DNA from: Anaerolineae bacterium
GTDB taxonomy: Bacteria; Chloroflexota; Anaerolineae; UBA4142; SHND01
Reading direction: 5' to 3'
Length of the DNA: 64,000 nucleotides
Assembly: GCA_021463195.1 (NCBI GenBank)
Contig: JAJTXZ010000002.1
Coordinates: forward strand, 1-64,000
Notes under the pieces: model-generated
What the model was told of the DNA's origin: nothing
What the model saw: only the letters and a program-made list of their open reading frames with translations
Databases searched by the model: none
In this document: in pieces, positions 3,564 through 24,268 of the stretch
Layout: each line of letters starts with the position of its first letter
Position numbering within the stretch: position 1 is the stretch's first letter
Made by a program: the position numbers and the translations under genes

Positions 3564-3702
3564 CAACGCGCGTTCAAAAAAATCCGAATTCGGCTGACGC
3601 AGGTCATTTCAATGTAAAGCATCTCGGTTTAGCGCATGAGATTATTTTACGAATACGATTCGCGATGACTGCGGAGGCATAACCTGAATTAGGGGGTTAA
3701 AG

Positions 3703-17778: not shown

Positions 17779-18213
17779 TTATATGCCAATAATTTTTTGA
17801 AAATCAGTCAGGTCGATGATTTGCGTCCCGTAGAAATGTTTGATATTGCGGAGGTGTGCGTCTTCGCTGATGAGATAGTCCGCGTGCGTTTCAAGTGAGC
17901 ATGCCAGAAAGACATTATCCGTTGGGTCTTGTTCGACGCGCGACACCTGATACAGATCATCTGCTAACAAGGCGATGTCAAGCAGTTGGTTCAGAAAACT
18001 CTGAATGGAAGATTCCGTCAAACGATTTTTCTCTTTGATACGAGGATAGTTCAAGACGCGCTCGAGTTCCTGCATGATCGCGTGCGACATTCCCAAGAGA
18101 AACTCGCCTGTTTTGATCCGCTCCAGCATTTTTCGGCTTGCAGGTGATTTGCTCAATGCAAGGCGAACGAGAATATTTGCGTCAAAGATGGCGACAACGC
18201 GTGATTTTGCCAT
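17779..18213 (-). CDS. PIN-domain toxin (putative RNase), TA module 1
   Basis: 144 aa. PIN-domain acids are all in place: FDANILVRLAL (Asp ~9), QELERVL (Glu), DPTDNVFLACS (Asp) and LISEDAHLRNI (Asp). It belongs to the family annotated as 'putative toxin-antitoxin system toxin component, PIN family', expected to cleave RNA in a metal-dependent way. It sits 12 bp after its putative antitoxin. It is homologous to the PIN toxin at 18773 (shared end HLRNIKxFYGTQI), so the two modules are duplicates that diverged. Confidence 0.85.
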   Translation of the reverse strand: MAKSRVVAIFDANILVRLALSKSPASRKMLERIKTGEFLLGMSHAIMQELERVLNYPRIKEKNRLTESSIQSFLNQLLDIALLADDLYQVSRVEQDPTDNVFLACSLETHADYLISEDAHLRNIKHFYGTQIIDLTDFQKIIGI

Positions 18214-18225
18214 GGGTAGGTTGAT

Positions 18226-18537
18226 CTATTGATTGCGTTTGTTCTCGGCGCGCACGGCTTGGACGGCTTGATCAATATCGCGAATCAATTCCTCCTCGGG
18301 AATATCAGGAAGCTGTTCGCGCAGCGCCTCAAATTTCTTCCACGCGCTCTCCCATTCCGGGCGCGCGCGCTTGCGTTCAAATTCTACCTCTATCAGTCTT
18401 CGCACGCGGCGGCGTTCGATTTCACGTTCCGCCATTTCGAGTAACGCCTGTTCGGGTTTCAGATTTTCGAGCGCTGCGATTTCATCTATCGCGCGGAATG
18501 TCCTTTCAGAAAGTTCGACCATCAAAAAGTGCGACAT
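18226..18537 (-). CDS. Putative antitoxin, TA module 1
   Basis: 103 aa from ATG 18537, which has AAGGAAGGAG just upstream (a longer TTG start would swallow it). The N-terminus (MSHFLMVELSERTFRAIDEI) resembles a short strand-helix DNA-binding start, followed by charged helices. The C-terminal end (PEWESAWKKFEALREQLPDI, PEEELIRDIDQAV) is shared with the antitoxin of module 2. Role as antitoxin is inferred from position and pairing. Confidence 0.75.
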   Translation of the reverse strand: MSHFLMVELSERTFRAIDEIAALENLKPEQALLEMAEREIERRRVRRLIEVEFERKRARPEWESAWKKFEALREQLPDIPEEELIRDIDQAVQAVRAENKRNQ

Positions 18538-18556
18538 GTTTCGCTCCTTCCTTGAC

Positions 18557-18767
18557 AAATGCCTGTGATGCTCAATTGCATCACAGGCATTTTATCACCA
18601 ATCTTTTCTACGCGGCGACTTTATCTTTTCTCTTTTTCCCATCATTCCGCGTTTGCGGTTCTTCTTGCAGAAAAATCAACTTGCCATTTTCCACATCCGC
18701 TACAACATGGTCGCCGTCGCGGATGTGTCCGTTTAACACATCCAGCGCGAGTGGGTCGAGGACGCGG
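18557..18767. repeat. Direct repeat L: displaced copy of the clpB 3' end and terminator
   Basis: This ~210 bp matches 19560-19771, which holds the hairpin after clpB (AATGCCTG...CAGGCATTTT) and its last ~53 codons. The match ends sharply at 18767, six bases before the stop codon of the PIN gene of module 2. The stop-proximal 30 bp is the most diverged part. Together the two copies bracket TA module 2. Confidence 0.88.
18608..18767 (-). pseudogene. Fragment of clpB 3' end
   Basis: Encodes [40 protein letters not shown] and a Lys-rich tail up to TAG 18608, matching the end of the full ClpB at 19612. No start, and no upstream part: it is cut exactly where TA module 2 begins. Substitutions relative to the full gene are mostly synonymous or conservative (HIRDGD for RIRDGD), so it diverged while still coding or comes from a related strain. 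Confidence 0.88.
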
Positions 18768-18772
18768 AAATT

Positions 18773-19213
18773 CTATTTCTTGAGTCCCATCTCCTTTTCG
18801 AATTGCTCCAGCCCCACAATCTGTGTTCCGTAAAAGTATTTGATATTGCGAAGATGCGGGTCTTCGCTGACAAGGTAATCGGCTTTGACCTCGTAAGCAA
18901 CCGCAAGAAAAATGTCGTCAGTTGGATCATCTTTTACGACGGAGACTTCGTACAAATCCTCCGCTTCAAAACCAGCGTCGCGGAGCGCGTCCAAAAATTC
19001 GCCAAAATACTTGCGCGCTTCGGGTTGCTTGCGCGCAATGCGCCGATAACCCAGCACGCGCTCGAGTTCGGAAAGAATTTTTGCTGAAACGACGAGACGG
19101 AATCGTCCCTGCAAAACCGTCTGCCACATTTGGCGAATGGCTTCAGTTCGAGCCAACGCGATCCGCACGAGTTCATTTGTATCAAAGACGGCAACCAAGA
19201 TTTCCTCATCCAT
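18773..19213 (-). CDS. PIN-domain toxin (putative RNase), TA module 2
   Basis: 146 aa, homologous to the toxin of module 1. Catalytic acids: VFDTNELVRIAL (Asp), SELERVLGY (Glu), DPTDDIFLAVA (Asp), LVSEDPHLRNI (Asp). Start ATG 19213 follows GGAGAG. Its stop codon abuts the clpB 3' fragment. It lies 23 bp after its antitoxin. Presumed RNase activity follows from the PIN family, not from this sequence alone. Confidence 0.85.
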   Translation of the reverse strand: MDEEILVAVFDTNELVRIALARTEAIRQMWQTVLQGRFRLVVSAKILSELERVLGYRRIARKQPEARKYFGEFLDALRDAGFEAEDLYEVSVVKDDPTDDIFLAVAYEVKADYLVSEDPHLRNIKYFYGTQIVGLEQFEKEMGLKK

Positions 19214-19236
19214 ATTCTCTCCAATATGGTAGTGAG

Positions 19237-19545
19237 TTATTTCTGTGTTTTCTTTCGTACTGCGCGAATAGCCGCTTCAATATCAGCATCTAGCTCCGCT
19301 TCAGGAATGGGTCGAACTTTTGCGCGAAATTTTTCGATACGCTCAAACGTCTTGCTCCATTCAGGGCTGGCTTGTCGACGCGCCATCTCTTGCAAAACAT
19401 ATTCATGCTTACTCTCACGCCGCAAAGCCTCGCGGAAAATTGCGCGCGCTGCTTGCTGGCGCTTGAGCTTTTTATTCATGGCTAGTCGTTCTAGCTCGCG
19501 CGCTTCGCGCTTTGTCAATCGGAAAGAGACCGTCAAATTCTCCAT
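19237..19545 (-). CDS. Putative antitoxin, TA module 2
   Basis: 102 aa from ATG 19545 (GGAGG 5 nt upstream; a longer frame reaches into the clpB terminator repeat). The N-terminus (MENLTVSFRLTKREARELER) looks like a ribbon-helix-helix type DNA-binding segment. The C-terminal PEWSKTFERIEKF and IPEAELDADIEAAIRAVR match the antitoxin of module 1. Position directly before the PIN gene supports the role. Confidence 0.77.
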   Translation of the reverse strand: MENLTVSFRLTKREARELERLAMNKKLKRQQAARAIFREALRRESKHEYVLQEMARRQASPEWSKTFERIEKFRAKVRPIPEAELDADIEAAIRAVRKKTQK

Positions 19546-19559
19546 CGCAACCTCCATAA

Positions 19560-19771
19560 AAAATGCCTGCAACGCAATCTCGCATCACAGGCATTTTATC
19601 ACCAATCTTTTCTACGTCACCATTTTTTCTTTCTTCTTTCGTCCATCATCCCGCGTCTGCGGCTCTTCTTGCAGAAAAATCAACTTGCCATTTTCCACAT
19701 CCGCCACAACATGGTCGCCGTCGCGGATGCGACCGTTCAATACGTCTAGCGCGAGCGGGTCGAGGACGCGG
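19560..19771. repeat. Direct repeat R: clpB 3' end and terminator
   Basis: Native copy of the repeat at 18557-18767. It includes the hairpin AATGCCTG...CAGGCATTTT after the clpB stop and the last ~53 clpB codons. Confidence 0.88.
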
Positions 19772-22266
19772 CGTTGGATGGTGCGTTTCAACGGGCGCGC
19801 GCCGTATTTCGGGTCATAGCCCTCGTTCACCAGAAACTCTTTTGCCTGGTCGCTCAACTCGATGCTGATGTGACGGTCTTCCAAACGCCGCGCCACTTGC
19901 TTGAGCAGAATCTCGACAATGTTTTTCAAGTTCTCCATCGTGAGACCATGAAAGACTACAATGTCGTCCACACGATTCAAAAATTCGGGACGGAAATGTT
20001 TTCGCATTTCTTCGGTGACGCGATTTTTCACATTCTCCCATTCGCTCTCGTTCATTTCGCGCCCCGCGTACATGCCCAAAAATTCACTGCCGATGTTTGA
20101 CGTCATAATCACGACGACGTTTTTGAAATCCACAACGCGTCCTTGTCCGTCGGTCAAACGTCCGTCGTCGAGAATTTGCAGCATCACGTTGAACACATCG
20201 GGCGCGGCTTTTTCGATTTCGTCAAAGAGGACGACAGAGTACGGTTTGCGGCGCACGGCTTCGGTGAGTTGTCCGCCTTCGTCGTAGCCGATGTATCCGG
20301 GCGGCGCGCCAATCAAACGCGCGACCGTGTGCTTTTCTTGATATTCGCTCATGTCAATCCGAATCATCGCGTTCTCGTCGTCGAACAAAAATTCCGCGAG
20401 CGCGCGCGCAAGTTCCGTTTTGCCGACGCCCGTGGGTCCGAGAAAGATGAATGAGCCGACGGGGCGCTGCGGGTCTTTTAATCCCGCGCGCGCGCGTCGT
20501 ACCGCGTTCGCCACCACCGTAATCGCTTCGTCTTGCCCGACAACGCGCTCGTGCAAACGTGTTTCCATTTGAATCAATTTTTGCACTTCGCCTTCCATCA
20601 AGCGCGAAACGGGAATGCCCGTCCATTTTGCGACGACTTCGGCGATGTTGTCTTCGGTCACTTCTTCATTTAACAGCGCGCCCGATTTTTTCAGTTCCGC
20701 AAGTTTTTGCGCGCTCTCCTCGATTTTTTTGTCCAGCGCAACCATCTTGCCGTATTGAATTTCGGCGGCTTTTTGATAATCGCCTTGCCGCGTTGCCTGG
20801 TCCAAATCGTTGACGAGTTGGTCGCGTTCTTTTTTCAGCGTCAGTTCCGAATCCATCAACTCTTTTTCTTGTTTCCAACGCGCGGTCAACGCGGTGGATT
20901 GTTCTTGCAAATTCGCCAACTCTTTTTCTAAATTTTTGAGCCGTTCGCGCGACGCGGAATCTTTTTCGTTTTTCAACGCGACGCGTTCAATTTCCAACTG
21001 ACTGATGCGCCGTTGAATTTCGTCCAACTCGGCAGGCATCGAATCCAACTGCAAACGCAAACGCGAACTCGCTTCGTCCACGAGGTCAATCGCCTTGTCG
21101 GGCAAAAAGCGGTCGCTGATGTAACGATGGCTCAACACCGCCGCGGCGACGAGCGCGCTGTCGCGGATTTCGACGCCGTGATGGCGTTGATACGCGTCGC
21201 GCAAGCCGCGTAAAATGCTGATGGTGTCTTCGACGCTCGGCTCTTCCACCAAGACAGGTTGGAAACGCCGTTCGAGCGCCGCGTCCTTTTCGATATACTT
21301 GCGATATTCGTTCAACGTCGTCGCGCCAATCGCGTGCAGTTCGCCGCGCGCGAGCATCGGTTTAATCATGTTGCCCGCATCCATCGAACCTTCCGCCGCG
21401 CCCGCGCCGACGATGGTGTGAATCTCGTCAATGAAAACGATGATTTGACCTTCCGCGCTCGTGACCTCTTTCAGCACTGCCTTCAAACGTTCTTCAAATT
21501 CGCCGCGAAATTTCGCGCCCGCAATCATCGCGCCAAAATCCAAGGCGATCACTTTTTTGTCTTTCAAGGGTTCAGGCACATCGCCGCGCACAATGCGCTG
21601 CGCGAGTCCTTCGACAATCGCGGTTTTGCCGACGCCCGGTTCGCCAATCAACACCGGATTATTTTTCGTGCGCCGCGAAAGAATTTGCATCACGCGCCGC
21701 ACCTCTTCGTCGCGTCCGATCACGGGGTCGAGTTTTCCTTTACGCGCGAGCTCGGTGAGGTCGCGCCCGTATTTTTTCAATGCCTCGTAGGTGGCTTCAG
21801 GATTTTGTGTCGTGACGCGTTGATTGCCGCGCACGGATTGCAATGCCGCGAGAATTTTGTCGCGCGTGACGCCCGCGCGATTCAAAATTTGACTCGCCTT
21901 GCTTTCGACGTTTGCGAGCGCGATAAGCATTGCTTCGGTTGAGACAAAATCGTCTTTCAATCCATCTGCAACCGTTTGCGATTCATCCAACGCGCGCTGC
22001 GTTTGCCGCGCGAGTCCGACTTGGACCGCGCCGCCATACGCTTTGGCGAGTTTGTCAATTTCACTTTTTGCTTGCTGCGCGAGCGTTTCGGGATTTGCGC
22101 CCACTGCGCGCACAACTTGCGGCGCCACGCCGTCGGTCTGATTTAACAGCGCGAGCAAAAGATGTTCGGGTTCTACCGTGCTGTTTGCATTTTCTTGCGC
22201 CAGCGCAATCGCCGCTTGCAACGCTTCGGCTGCTTTTTCAGTTAGTTTTTGCATGTTTAGTGCCAT
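19612..22266 (-). CDS. clpB: ATP-dependent chaperone ClpB
   Basis: Hexameric disaggregase (884 aa) that works with DnaK/DnaJ to rescue aggregated proteins. Order: N-terminal Clp_N repeats (1-150), AAA+ 1 with Walker A GEPGVGKT (~204) and FIDEIHTI, the long coiled-coil middle domain (~400-525, [15 protein letters not shown]), AAA+ 2 with GPTGVGKT (~605) and LFDEIEKA, then the small C-terminal domain. Start ATG 22266 follows AGAGGAAA; MQKLTEK four codons later aligns with usual ClpB starts. It appears complete. Both ends are duplicated next to TA modules, yet the gene itself is intact. Confidence 0.97.
22232..22259. repeat. 28-bp direct repeat, inner copy (clpB first codons)
   Basis: Exact 28-bp match to 23035-23062. 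It covers the MQKLTEKA start region of clpB and four bases upstream. The two copies bracket the TumE-like module. Confidence 0.9.
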
Positions 22267-22268
22267 AT

Positions 22269-22664
22269 TTATTTCCTCTTGTTTGCTAATTCAACTTCAA
22301 TTTCCAGAATTACCTGTAAGATATTTAACGGATTGCTTATTTCTGATACGGTTCCATCAGCCCAATGCACATGATGAGTGCTAGAAAACTCTTTGTAGTG
22401 TGCAGCGTTATCCCATCGCTTGATTAGCTTGCCGTCTTGATCTTGCCAATGAAAACTATACTTGCGAATTTTGATTTCTGAATTTGTCTCTATCACATTC
22501 TCGAAAAATTCACCTTGACTCGCATCTATCAACTTGGCTTTCACGCGAAAAATGCCGTCTATGTCGGATACATCGCGGCGCAAGATTTGAAAAGTGGTAA
22601 TTGCCGGACTGGCGATAAAACGCGCCTCGATTTCATCAAAGTAGGATGCGATACGCGAGTTCAC
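22269..22664 (-). CDS. TumE-like (DUF6516) putative toxin
   Basis: 131 aa. The pattern [33 protein letters not shown] and the end [13 protein letters not shown] fits the TumE/DUF6516 toxin family (RWDNxPHH...HVH in typical members). The first His of the usual HH pair is replaced here (AAHYKEF), which might affect activity. Start is GTG 22664 with AGGAG 7 nt upstream, overlapping the ribosome site with the antitoxin stop. The stop is 2 bp before the clpB start, so clpB may be transcribed from this module. Confidence 0.65.
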
Positions 22665-22666
22665 TG

Positions 22667-22984
22667 TTAATCTCCTATTTCAAGCAAAGAGATGCGCCTT
22701 TCGAGATTTTGCAGCATTTCATACGTCGCGGACCATTCAAAAAAATCCATCGCATCACCCAATGCGCCATCTTCAAAGCGCGGATAAAATTCGCGCGTCG
22801 GCATGTGGTATTGGTTTTCAAACGCGGCGATTCGTGCTGCGAGTGTTGTCTTGAGCGTCTCCAAGCGCGTTGATTCTCTTTCCAAGAGTTTATCAAGTGT
22901 TTGTTCTACGACATGGTCAATAGCATTTTCATCAGCCGCCACATATTGCTCAAGTCGTTTTACTTTTTCGAGTACGGTTGACAT
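22667..22984 (-). CDS. Putative antitoxin partner of the TumE-like protein
   Basis: 105 aa, helical and charged (LEKVKRLEQYVAADENAIDH, LDKLLERESTRLETLKTTL). A coiled-coil N-terminal half is followed by a segment FEWSATYEMLQNLERRISLL. Start ATG 22984 has GAGGAG upstream. It sits 2 bp before the toxin gene, the usual arrangement. Family recognised only by context. Confidence 0.6.
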   Translation of the reverse strand: MSTVLEKVKRLEQYVAADENAIDHVVEQTLDKLLERESTRLETLKTTLAARIAAFENQYHMPTREFYPRFEDGALGDAMDFFEWSATYEMLQNLERRISLLEIGD

Positions 22985-23000
22985 GGATTATTTCTCCTCG

Positions 23001-23141
23001 TTAAATACATTGCGTGCCGATGAGCGCCTCTTGTGCTTTTTCAGTTAGTTTTTGCATGTTTATCAGGGCGATTCCGCCAATAATTGCCGCGATGATTGCT
23101 GCATTTCCTTGTGGTACGCCGCGATGGTCGGTGGATGACAT
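23001..23141 (-). CDS. Small chimeric ORF: hydrophobic segment fused to the clpB start
   Basis: 46 codons. The first half is MSSTDHRGVPQGNAAIIAAI and IGGIALIN, a possible membrane helix. The second half is [18 protein letters not shown], the beginning of ClpB including AQEAL, which is closer to typical ClpB than the present gene's AAEAL. It is probably a junction product, not a functional protein, but it records where clpB once started. AGGTCACTC lies upstream of the ATG. Confidence 0.45.
   Translation of the reverse strand: MSSTDHRGVPQGNAAIIAAIIGGIALINMQKLTEKAQEALIGTQCI
23035..23062. repeat. 28-bp direct repeat, outer copy (displaced clpB start)
   Basis: Identical to 22232-22259. The clpB homology continues for about five more codons on one side (AQEAL), so the outer copy is a remnant of an earlier clpB 5' end. 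Confidence 0.9.
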
Positions 23142-23188: not shown

Positions 23189-23428
23189 TTAATCCTTTGA
23201 GCGTTGCTTAACCATTTGATTGTAAATGTCTTGCGCGCTCGTATCACCCCACAACTCGCGGAAATGCTTGACCGCATCTCCTGACCCCTTATCAATCAAC
23301 ATGATAAAGCGCGTGGCATCGGCGTAGCCCAAGTTTTCTACTAGCACATTCCAACCGCGCGAGACTAGGACCGTATTCGTTGACTCAGCGCCGCGTCCTG
23401 TTCCGAGGGATGATGTTTGAATTGCCAT
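23189..23428 (-). CDS. Small protein of unknown function in the TA cluster
   Basis: 79 aa from ATG 23428 (AGGAG 10 nt upstream, overlapping the stop of the preceding PIN gene). Sequence parts: TNTVLVSRGWNVLVENLGYA, ATRFIMLIDKGSGDAVKHFR, TSAQDIYNQMVKQ. I recall similar short proteins next to toxin genes in Chloroflexota and cyanobacteria, but cannot name the family. Being immediately downstream of a PIN gene, it may be an antitoxin or a third component. Confidence 0.6.
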   Translation of the reverse strand: MAIQTSSLGTGRGAESTNTVLVSRGWNVLVENLGYADATRFIMLIDKGSGDAVKHFRELWGDTSAQDIYNQMVKQRSKD

Positions 23429-23441
23429 CTTGGTTTTTCTC

Positions 23442-23900
23442 CTAATTCTCTGCTTGCGCAGCAAATTCTTCGAGGCGAATCAGTTTCACCCGAAAGCCAT
23501 GCTCGCTCGTAATCCGTTCACAGCAGTCTGCATGTCTAATCATGCGGCCATCGCAGGTAACGCAAAAAACCGCTTCTCCAAAGCACGCCGCCGCGACATG
23601 AAGAGCATCGCGGCCCTTAAATCCGCAGTCATGTTCTAGCTGTTGCGCTAATTTCAATTGCCTCTCATCAGCGCGTAGCGAGTGCGCGCAAAGTTTCAAG
23701 TACGTTTCAACTTTATTTTTAAGTCCGCATCGCTGACCTGCTCAATTTCAAATTCCAGTATTTCCGATTTGAGCAATTCAATCTCACCTTCTTCGACTTT
23801 CTAAAATCTTAACAAACGCTTCTGCCTCTTGCCGAATACGCGTCTGTGTTTGGTCATTGAATGGGCGAAAATACACGTTGGTGTCCAAATAGATTATCAT
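23442..23900 (-). pseudogene. PIN-domain toxin gene broken by frameshifts
   Basis: Reading starts MIIYLDTNVYFRPFNDQTQT, a perfect PIN opening with the first Asp. The frame breaks near ...KILESRRR, and homology continues as VEEGEIELLKSEILEFEIEQ in a second frame. It ends in a third frame as TYLKLCAHSLRADERQ, RDALHVAAACFG and CVTCDGRMIRHAD. All four catalytic acids survive across the three frames, so the damage is recent. ATG 23900 directly follows the TAA of the partner gene. Confidence 0.8.
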
Positions 23901-24158
23901 TTAATCCATCCGAACACTTGTGAAATGTTGTAACACGCGCATATTTATTTCCCCGCGAGTTTCATTTGGAAATTGCAACGCAAATTCTTCGCACTTGATT
24001 GCCCGCGCCTTCTCCGAGTCGCGCATACCTTCCAAAATCCGCTCAGCGTTGGTCAAGCTCGCGAGGTATCTCATTCGTTCCCAATCAATGGACGGAATTC
24101 CATGCACAATTTCCGCGATTTCTTCGCGCGTCAGTTCTTTTCTCTGTGGCGTTTCCAT
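23901..24158 (-). CDS. Putative antitoxin of the broken PIN module
   Basis: 85 aa, acidic and helical: KELTREEIAEIVHGIPSIDW, ERMRYLASLTNAERILEGMR, FALQFPNETRGEINMRVLQH. Stop and the next start are adjacent (TAAATG), so the two were co-translated. It remains open although its partner is broken, as expected when the toxin is lost first. No clear ribosome-binding site. The family is not recognised. Confidence 0.6.
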   Translation of the reverse strand: METPQRKELTREEIAEIVHGIPSIDWERMRYLASLTNAERILEGMRDSEKARAIKCEEFALQFPNETRGEINMRVLQHFTSVRMD

Positions 24159-24177
24159 CAATCTTTGTTCAAAACAA

Positions 24178-24240
24178 CAGCGTTTGCTTTCTCACGCTCC
24201 TGGCCTCAAGAAAATCGCGCGAATGAAAAAGCAAACGCTG
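24178..24240. terminator. Inverted repeat after the BON gene
   Basis: Perfect 13-bp arms CAGCGTTTGCTTT (24178-24190) and its complement (24228-24240), with a 37-nt loop. It lies between the BON-protein stop and the TA cluster and may end transcription on the minus strand. Confidence 0.5.
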
Positions 24241-24268
24241 TGTATTTCAATGTATCGAACGAAAAAAA

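Follow-up and report, generated by a model that had tools for sequence, protein, structure and literature searches.

How can toxin-antitoxin (TA) modules enter a chaperone gene at both its 5′ and its 3′ end and leave the gene working? This is the question raised by the clpB locus of an Anaerolineae bacterium. The window, the whole 64,000-nucleotide stretch of DNA analysed here (contig JAJTXZ010000002.1, from the genome called G000 below), carries on its minus strand, in order, BON, orf86, an apparently frameshifted PIN gene, orf91, a stub of the clpB start, TumA, TumE, clpB, an antitoxin-like gene, PIN, a stub of the clpB 3′ end, another antitoxin-like gene, PIN and GNAT (Table 1). The original prediction described an exact 28-bp repeat of the clpB start around the TumE-like module. 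The repeat is there, but it is 29 bp long, with 89% identity over 38 bp, and encloses an insert of about 0.8 kb that includes a TumA-TumE module of about 0.73 kb. A chance origin was rejected: in 20 Markov shuffles of the window, exact repeats reached maximum lengths of 15-21 bp.

Table 1. Features of the clpB locus, with positions in the window.
Feature	Position	Strand	Evidence
Further insertion: orf86 (23901-24161), PIN (about 23442-23900, looks frameshifted), orf91 (23189-23464)	23189-24161	-	Gene content and relatives
Outer copy of clpB start, in the ancestral position	23001-23062	-	29-bp exact repeat 23034-23062 and residual frame 23057-23001
TumA-like antitoxin gene, 105 aa	22667-22984	-	NCBIfam NF045776, 2.1e-9, below cut-off; gene order; 78% identical copy at the same place in G003
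TumE-like toxin gene, 131 aa	22269-22664	-	PF20126, 2.8e-16
clpB, intact, 884 aa	19612-22266	-	Clp_N, AAA and ClpB_D2-small domains; 86% to G004 ClpB; inner repeat copy 22231-22259
3′ target duplication, copy 1: clpB last codons, terminator and start of next gene	19545-19771	-	Repeat comparison
Inserted module: antitoxin-like gene (19237-19572) and PIN toxin (18773-19213)	18773-19572	-	PIN_3, 3.6e-16; TIGR00305
3′ target duplication, copy 2: orphan clpB 3′ end and terminator	18541-18767	-	84% identical over 227 nt
Second module: antitoxin-like gene (18226-18558) and PIN (17779-18213)	17779-18558	-	TIGR00305, 7.7e-12

The toxin of the 5′ module scores well above the gathering score of its Pfam family (59.7 bits against 23.4), but misses the cut-off of the NCBIfam TumE equivalog NF045777 (38.2 bits against 90). 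The antitoxin misses that of the TumA equivalog (37.4 bits against 100), a weak but specific match. The pair is like the TumE-TumA superfamily (PMC10584680) in having a TumE-domain toxin preceded by a TumA-like antitoxin gene, and unlike it in scoring under the equivalog cut-offs, as a divergent subfamily whose closest relatives in the order lie at clpB. Inspection of the genes, domains and repeats of the module showed that it carries neither a transposase nor an integrase and lacks terminal inverted repeats, and no inverted repeats bracket it. The stop codon of tumE lies 2 nt from the clpB ATG, and tumE ends in AGG AAA TAA, codons that correspond to the ribosome-binding site duplicated from clpB (AGGAAATAA in the outer copy of G003).

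The ClpB search matched 39 of 40 relatives, with divergent paralogues counted in, and three members of the same genus proved informative. G003 has TumA-TumE directly before clpB, at 77-78% identity, bracketed by a 70-bp repeat of 94% identity (3584-3653 and 4388-4457 in L259), which covers the clpB ribosome-binding site and codons 1-19, with homology extending to codon 22. Its outer copy, a homologous full-length remnant of the clpB start (L034), reads MALNMQKITEKAQEALVGARAF and then stops; it is preceded, as at the G005 site, by the ribosome-binding site and upstream region native to clpB, and tumA begins a few bases after it. The inner copy, AGGAAATAA..ATG, supplies tumE with its last codons and clpB with its ribosome-binding site. 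In G005 (L032/L033) there is a single copy of the clpB start, and clpB is followed directly by the GNAT gene. TumAE is absent from clpB in both G004 and G005.

As the sequence upstream of the outer copy is still the native one of the empty site, TumAE and the inner copy are the newcomers, and the filled site of G003 beside the empty site of G005 gives BON-clpB as the ancestral state. Both copies share derived bases relative to G005 (CAA at codon 6, AAG at codon 11 and GCG at codon 19 in G003), which places the making of the duplication within this lineage. Within each of G000 and G003 the two copies also share private bases (ACT..AAA versus AAG), which could reflect later gene conversion or a different history. 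On these comparisons the TumAE insertion appears to be a single event inherited by G000 and G003, with a second, separate event at the 3′ end. An assembly error is unlikely, given that the layout recurs in two separate assemblies.

The observation behind the original prediction is thus confirmed, and more strongly than it was first put; its interpretation is partly borne out by these relatives, and neither of the outcomes that it had named as refuting was seen. It had called for an empty site with one copy of the repeat, and G005 has just this: a single clpB start and no TumAE. It had also set against itself a plain local duplication of TumAE and clpB, which would not yield an outer copy retaining its native upstream region. 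The proposal that clpB was invaded at both ends without loss of function agrees with the empty site in G005, the filled site with its 70-bp duplication in G003, and the intact clpB. The outer copy does continue in the usual ClpB sequence before its stop, as claimed; indeed the ClpB start of the genus (..KLTEKAQEALVGAQA.. in G003 and G005) is better matched by the stub than by the clpB of the window itself. The real ClpB N-terminus departs from the genus form at codons 12-22 (22201-22234), while the dead stub keeps it, and it is possible that the clpB start of this genome was replaced through recombination.

The predicted invasion of the 3′ end was also found, as a duplication of 227 nt of the clpB 3′ region, at 84%, around a module of an antitoxin-like gene and a PIN toxin; another module of this type lies further out. 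The clpB terminator within the duplication is a hairpin. The antitoxin-like gene of the first module had no family match above cut-off, and a module similar to the second sits directly 3′ of clpB in G004 and G006. The unit has a period of about 1,000 bp, and the two modules align with each other only in scattered stretches (65 nt at 77% and 32 nt at 75%).

Upstream of the outer copy is the further TA-like unit of orf86, PIN and orf91, absent from G003, G004 and G005; homologues of PIN-orf91 lie directly before clpB in G009, G012 and G018. A long inverted repeat also lies between BON and clpB, at 24168-24250 (AGCGTTTGCTTTTTCA..TGAGAAAGCAAACGCT, and of the AGTGCTTGCCCTCTC type in relatives, at loci L032, L034 and L031). 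It has changes on both arms and may be a terminator or a regulatory structure.

Within the order, the genomes with TA-like genes 5′ of clpB are G000, G003, G009, G011, G012 and G018, and those with such genes 3′ of it are G000, G004 and G006. The suggested enrichment of TA genes next to clpB did not emerge from class-wide Pfam counts: the toxin domains at 30 clpB loci (five PIN, three PIN_3 and one TumE members) were not clearly above those in gyrA flanks (one each of HEPN, BrnT and UPF0175). The idea of clpB as a landing site for different toxin families holds in that both sides are used, but clpB is not unique, as other genes carry similar TA insertions. It is a repeatedly used site in this order of bacteria, but not a proven special one. 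G006 also has a stub of the clpB start (52 bp, 94%), a short palindromic element being all that separates the copies. Palindromic MITE-like elements of about 85 bp (ACAACGGAC..GTCCGTTGT) adjoin gene-end duplications in G006 and G009 (L043 before clpB, L091, L070), including this stub.

Our scan for direct repeats separated by 250-6000 bp covered 1.42 of the 4.72 Mb of G000 and 0.4 Mb of G009, and true gene-end duplications around an insert were few. Host genes are named from their translated sequence, except for the methyltransferase, which has a TPMT match. The start of this methyltransferase gene is duplicated around HicA-HicB (47 nt, 96%), and a toxin-centred look gave the start of a microcompartment-shell-like gene duplicated around HicB-HicA (55 nt, 82%). 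Gene 3′ ends are marked in the same way. That of a membrane-protein gene, also reached by starting from toxins, is repeated twice more over 54-94 nt, with PIN modules between the copies (G000:C106:6321-9323; L239, L241, L249); DUF433-DUF5615 is bracketed by the 3′ end of a gene whose product ends in EERLAGLG (50 nt, 88%); and that of leuC in G009 is duplicated around HicB-HicA (67 nt, 92.5%). The membrane-protein gene adjoins a paralogue with an 89% identical 3′ part. In both G009 and G006 the 3′ end of an enolase-superfamily-like gene is duplicated with PIN or TumA beside it and with a TA content that differs between the two genomes, cases that were reached through TumA/TumE matches and so are not unbiased. 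The scar is not specific to TA genes: an MFS transporter is inserted likewise at leuB, whose start is duplicated around it (64 nt, 87.5%; G000:C56:95218-96785, L108 11218-12785).

G000 has only 15 PIN (PF01850) and 6 HicA loci. By an automated criterion gene-end repeats bracket 3 of its 22 PIN/HicA matches, against 5 of 881 points placed every 1.5 kb; two of the five control positives are themselves TA insertions, two of the three toxin positives share one locus, the methyltransferase case was missed and the control sample is small. Among TumE loci of many phyla 8 of 80 were bracketed, against 6 of 239 control points, with repeat-rich loci, such as cyanobacterial ones, inflating both arms. Beyond this lineage the cleaner examples are L261, L293 and L319, and L277 by eye. 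We set aside the repeats at L110, L130, L131, L134, L144, L167, L170 and L124 as paralogues, RHS repeats, palindromes, low-complexity sequence or CRISPR-like arrays. L124 10490-12801 resembles a CRISPR array, with a repeat that contains GTTTCCTCTATCGGAACGAACGAACTGCAAC.

Taken as a whole, the arrival of TumA-TumE at clpB was probably an insertion with long target duplication, here carrying a TA cargo. The site has an empty counterpart with a single copy in G005, the direct target repeats vary in length (70 bp in G003, 29 bp exact and 227 bp in the window, 47-94 bp at other TA sites), and there are no mobility genes. The module, with no transposase or integrase, would have entered clpB after about codon 22 in an ancestor shared by G000 and G003. 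Some 70-75 bp, holding the ribosome-binding site and codons 1-22, would have been copied, placing an intact clpB with its own ribosome-binding site behind the module and leaving the original start upstream as a stub ending in a stop codon. The duplication may have arisen during illegitimate joining, most simply if a strand left clpB at codon 22, copied the module and re-entered about 75 nt behind. The survivors are presumably those insertions that left the host gene whole, and an event of the same type probably brought in the 3′ module, along with its 227-nt duplication. The repeats are old and diverged, with only 29 bp exact in the window and the real clpB N-terminus changed after codon 11, so the exact junctions are unreadable.

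The same layout would result if the TumAE-clpB DNA of a close relative had recombined within clpB and been joined illegitimately at codon 22, turning the resident start into the stub. Such homology-facilitated illegitimate recombination is presented as established in competent bacteria in PMC3240628 and has been proposed for type VI immunity arrays (PMC5361080), and relatives of both TumAE and PIN-orf91 lie beside clpB in several sister-family genomes. We consider it a less likely alternative. It requires a donor that already had the junction, and with the inner and outer copies of G003 being sisters relative to G005, that donor would need to have been almost the same strain. It also leaves the first arrival at many unrelated genes unexplained. 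A distant donor, from the sister family, was rejected, the inner copy being unlike the NKLTEKAQEAV starts.

Alternatively, the module might have circularised with one copy of a host gene end and entered the same gene by a single crossover, with gene ends serving as docks of homology. This would give direct repeats and an intact gene at 5′ and 3′ sites alike, and would explain the serial insertions at the clpB 3′ end (two modules), the membrane-protein gene (two PIN modules) and the 3′ end of the enolase-superfamily gene (G006, G009). Repeats of 50-70 bp are short for efficient RecA recombination, however, and the first capture of a gene end would still need illegitimate joining; circles are rather unlikely. 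The wider form of the idea is speculative and doubtful: the ends of housekeeping genes would be recombination docks for TA cassettes, which would travel with a fragment of the gene end, move out of and back into that gene through homologous recombination, and accumulate there. If true, TA modules would be hidden behind essential genes by an integrase-free cassette system resembling integrons. As the origin of the duplication itself we prefer illegitimate joining, in which the strand re-enters behind the point where it left, to either circles or homology-facilitated recombination.

A tandem duplication of a pre-existing unit of TumAE and the clpB 5′ part, with the outer TumAE then lost, or an independent local duplication followed by insertion, seems improbable. 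Tandem duplication is a common bacterial rearrangement and the periodic unit on the 3′ side would suit it, but the outer copy of G003 follows the native region with no trace of TumAE between, and the 3′ modules align only patchily while the clpB remnant is 84% identical over its 227 nt. It is very improbable that an integrase acting in trans placed the module site-specifically at the clpB 5′ end: gene ends are common targets of integrase islands, with the gene end restored by the element, as by SXT at prfC, but here, unlike in such islands, the 0.8-kb insert has no integrase, the duplications vary from about 50 to 230 bp, differ in sequence and lie at many unrelated genes, and no common attachment core was seen among those at different host genes.

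The closest known parallel is the insertion with long target duplication of restriction-modification systems, for which long and variable duplications have been described (Nobusato et al. 2000 Gene 259:99; Furuta et al. 2010 NAR; as related in PMC3031569 and PMC3874152), of the order of 100 bp (PMC3874152). The clpB case is like these insertions, studied by Kobayashi, in its small self-preserving module, the lack of a transposase, the direct target duplications and the comparison with an empty site. It and the other cases found here are unlike them in their cargo, type II toxin-antitoxin genes (TumAE, HicAB, PIN and DUF433-DUF5615), in having duplications at gene ends with the gene kept whole, and in their host phylum, Chloroflexota. 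Type VI effector-immunity arrays (PMC5361080, and as presented in PMC3240628) likewise retain partial copies of the anchor gene after a toxin module is added alongside; there the anchor is the effector gene and is displaced, whereas here it is an unrelated housekeeping gene and is kept. No TA case of a long target duplication was found in the literature searched, which took in few subscription papers. Different TA families may use the same route as restriction-modification systems.

How chromosomal TA modules spread without mobility genes is a long-standing open question. The recurrence of the clpB signature at other TA modules of the lineage suggests how such genes settle without a transposase, and this general scar around TA modules is a more interesting result than the clpB site itself. 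The scar, a partial copy of the end of a neighbouring gene, lets insertions be dated, counted and compared across genomes. It further leads one to expect operons that place a toxin gene ahead of a chaperone or metabolic gene, and a module so placed may be hard to lose. With tumA-tumE between the native upstream region and clpB, and the tumE stop so close to the clpB start, transcription of clpB is probably part of the TA operon, and its translation is probably coupled to that of the toxin gene. Such coupling, if true, would make this module hard for the cell to lose.
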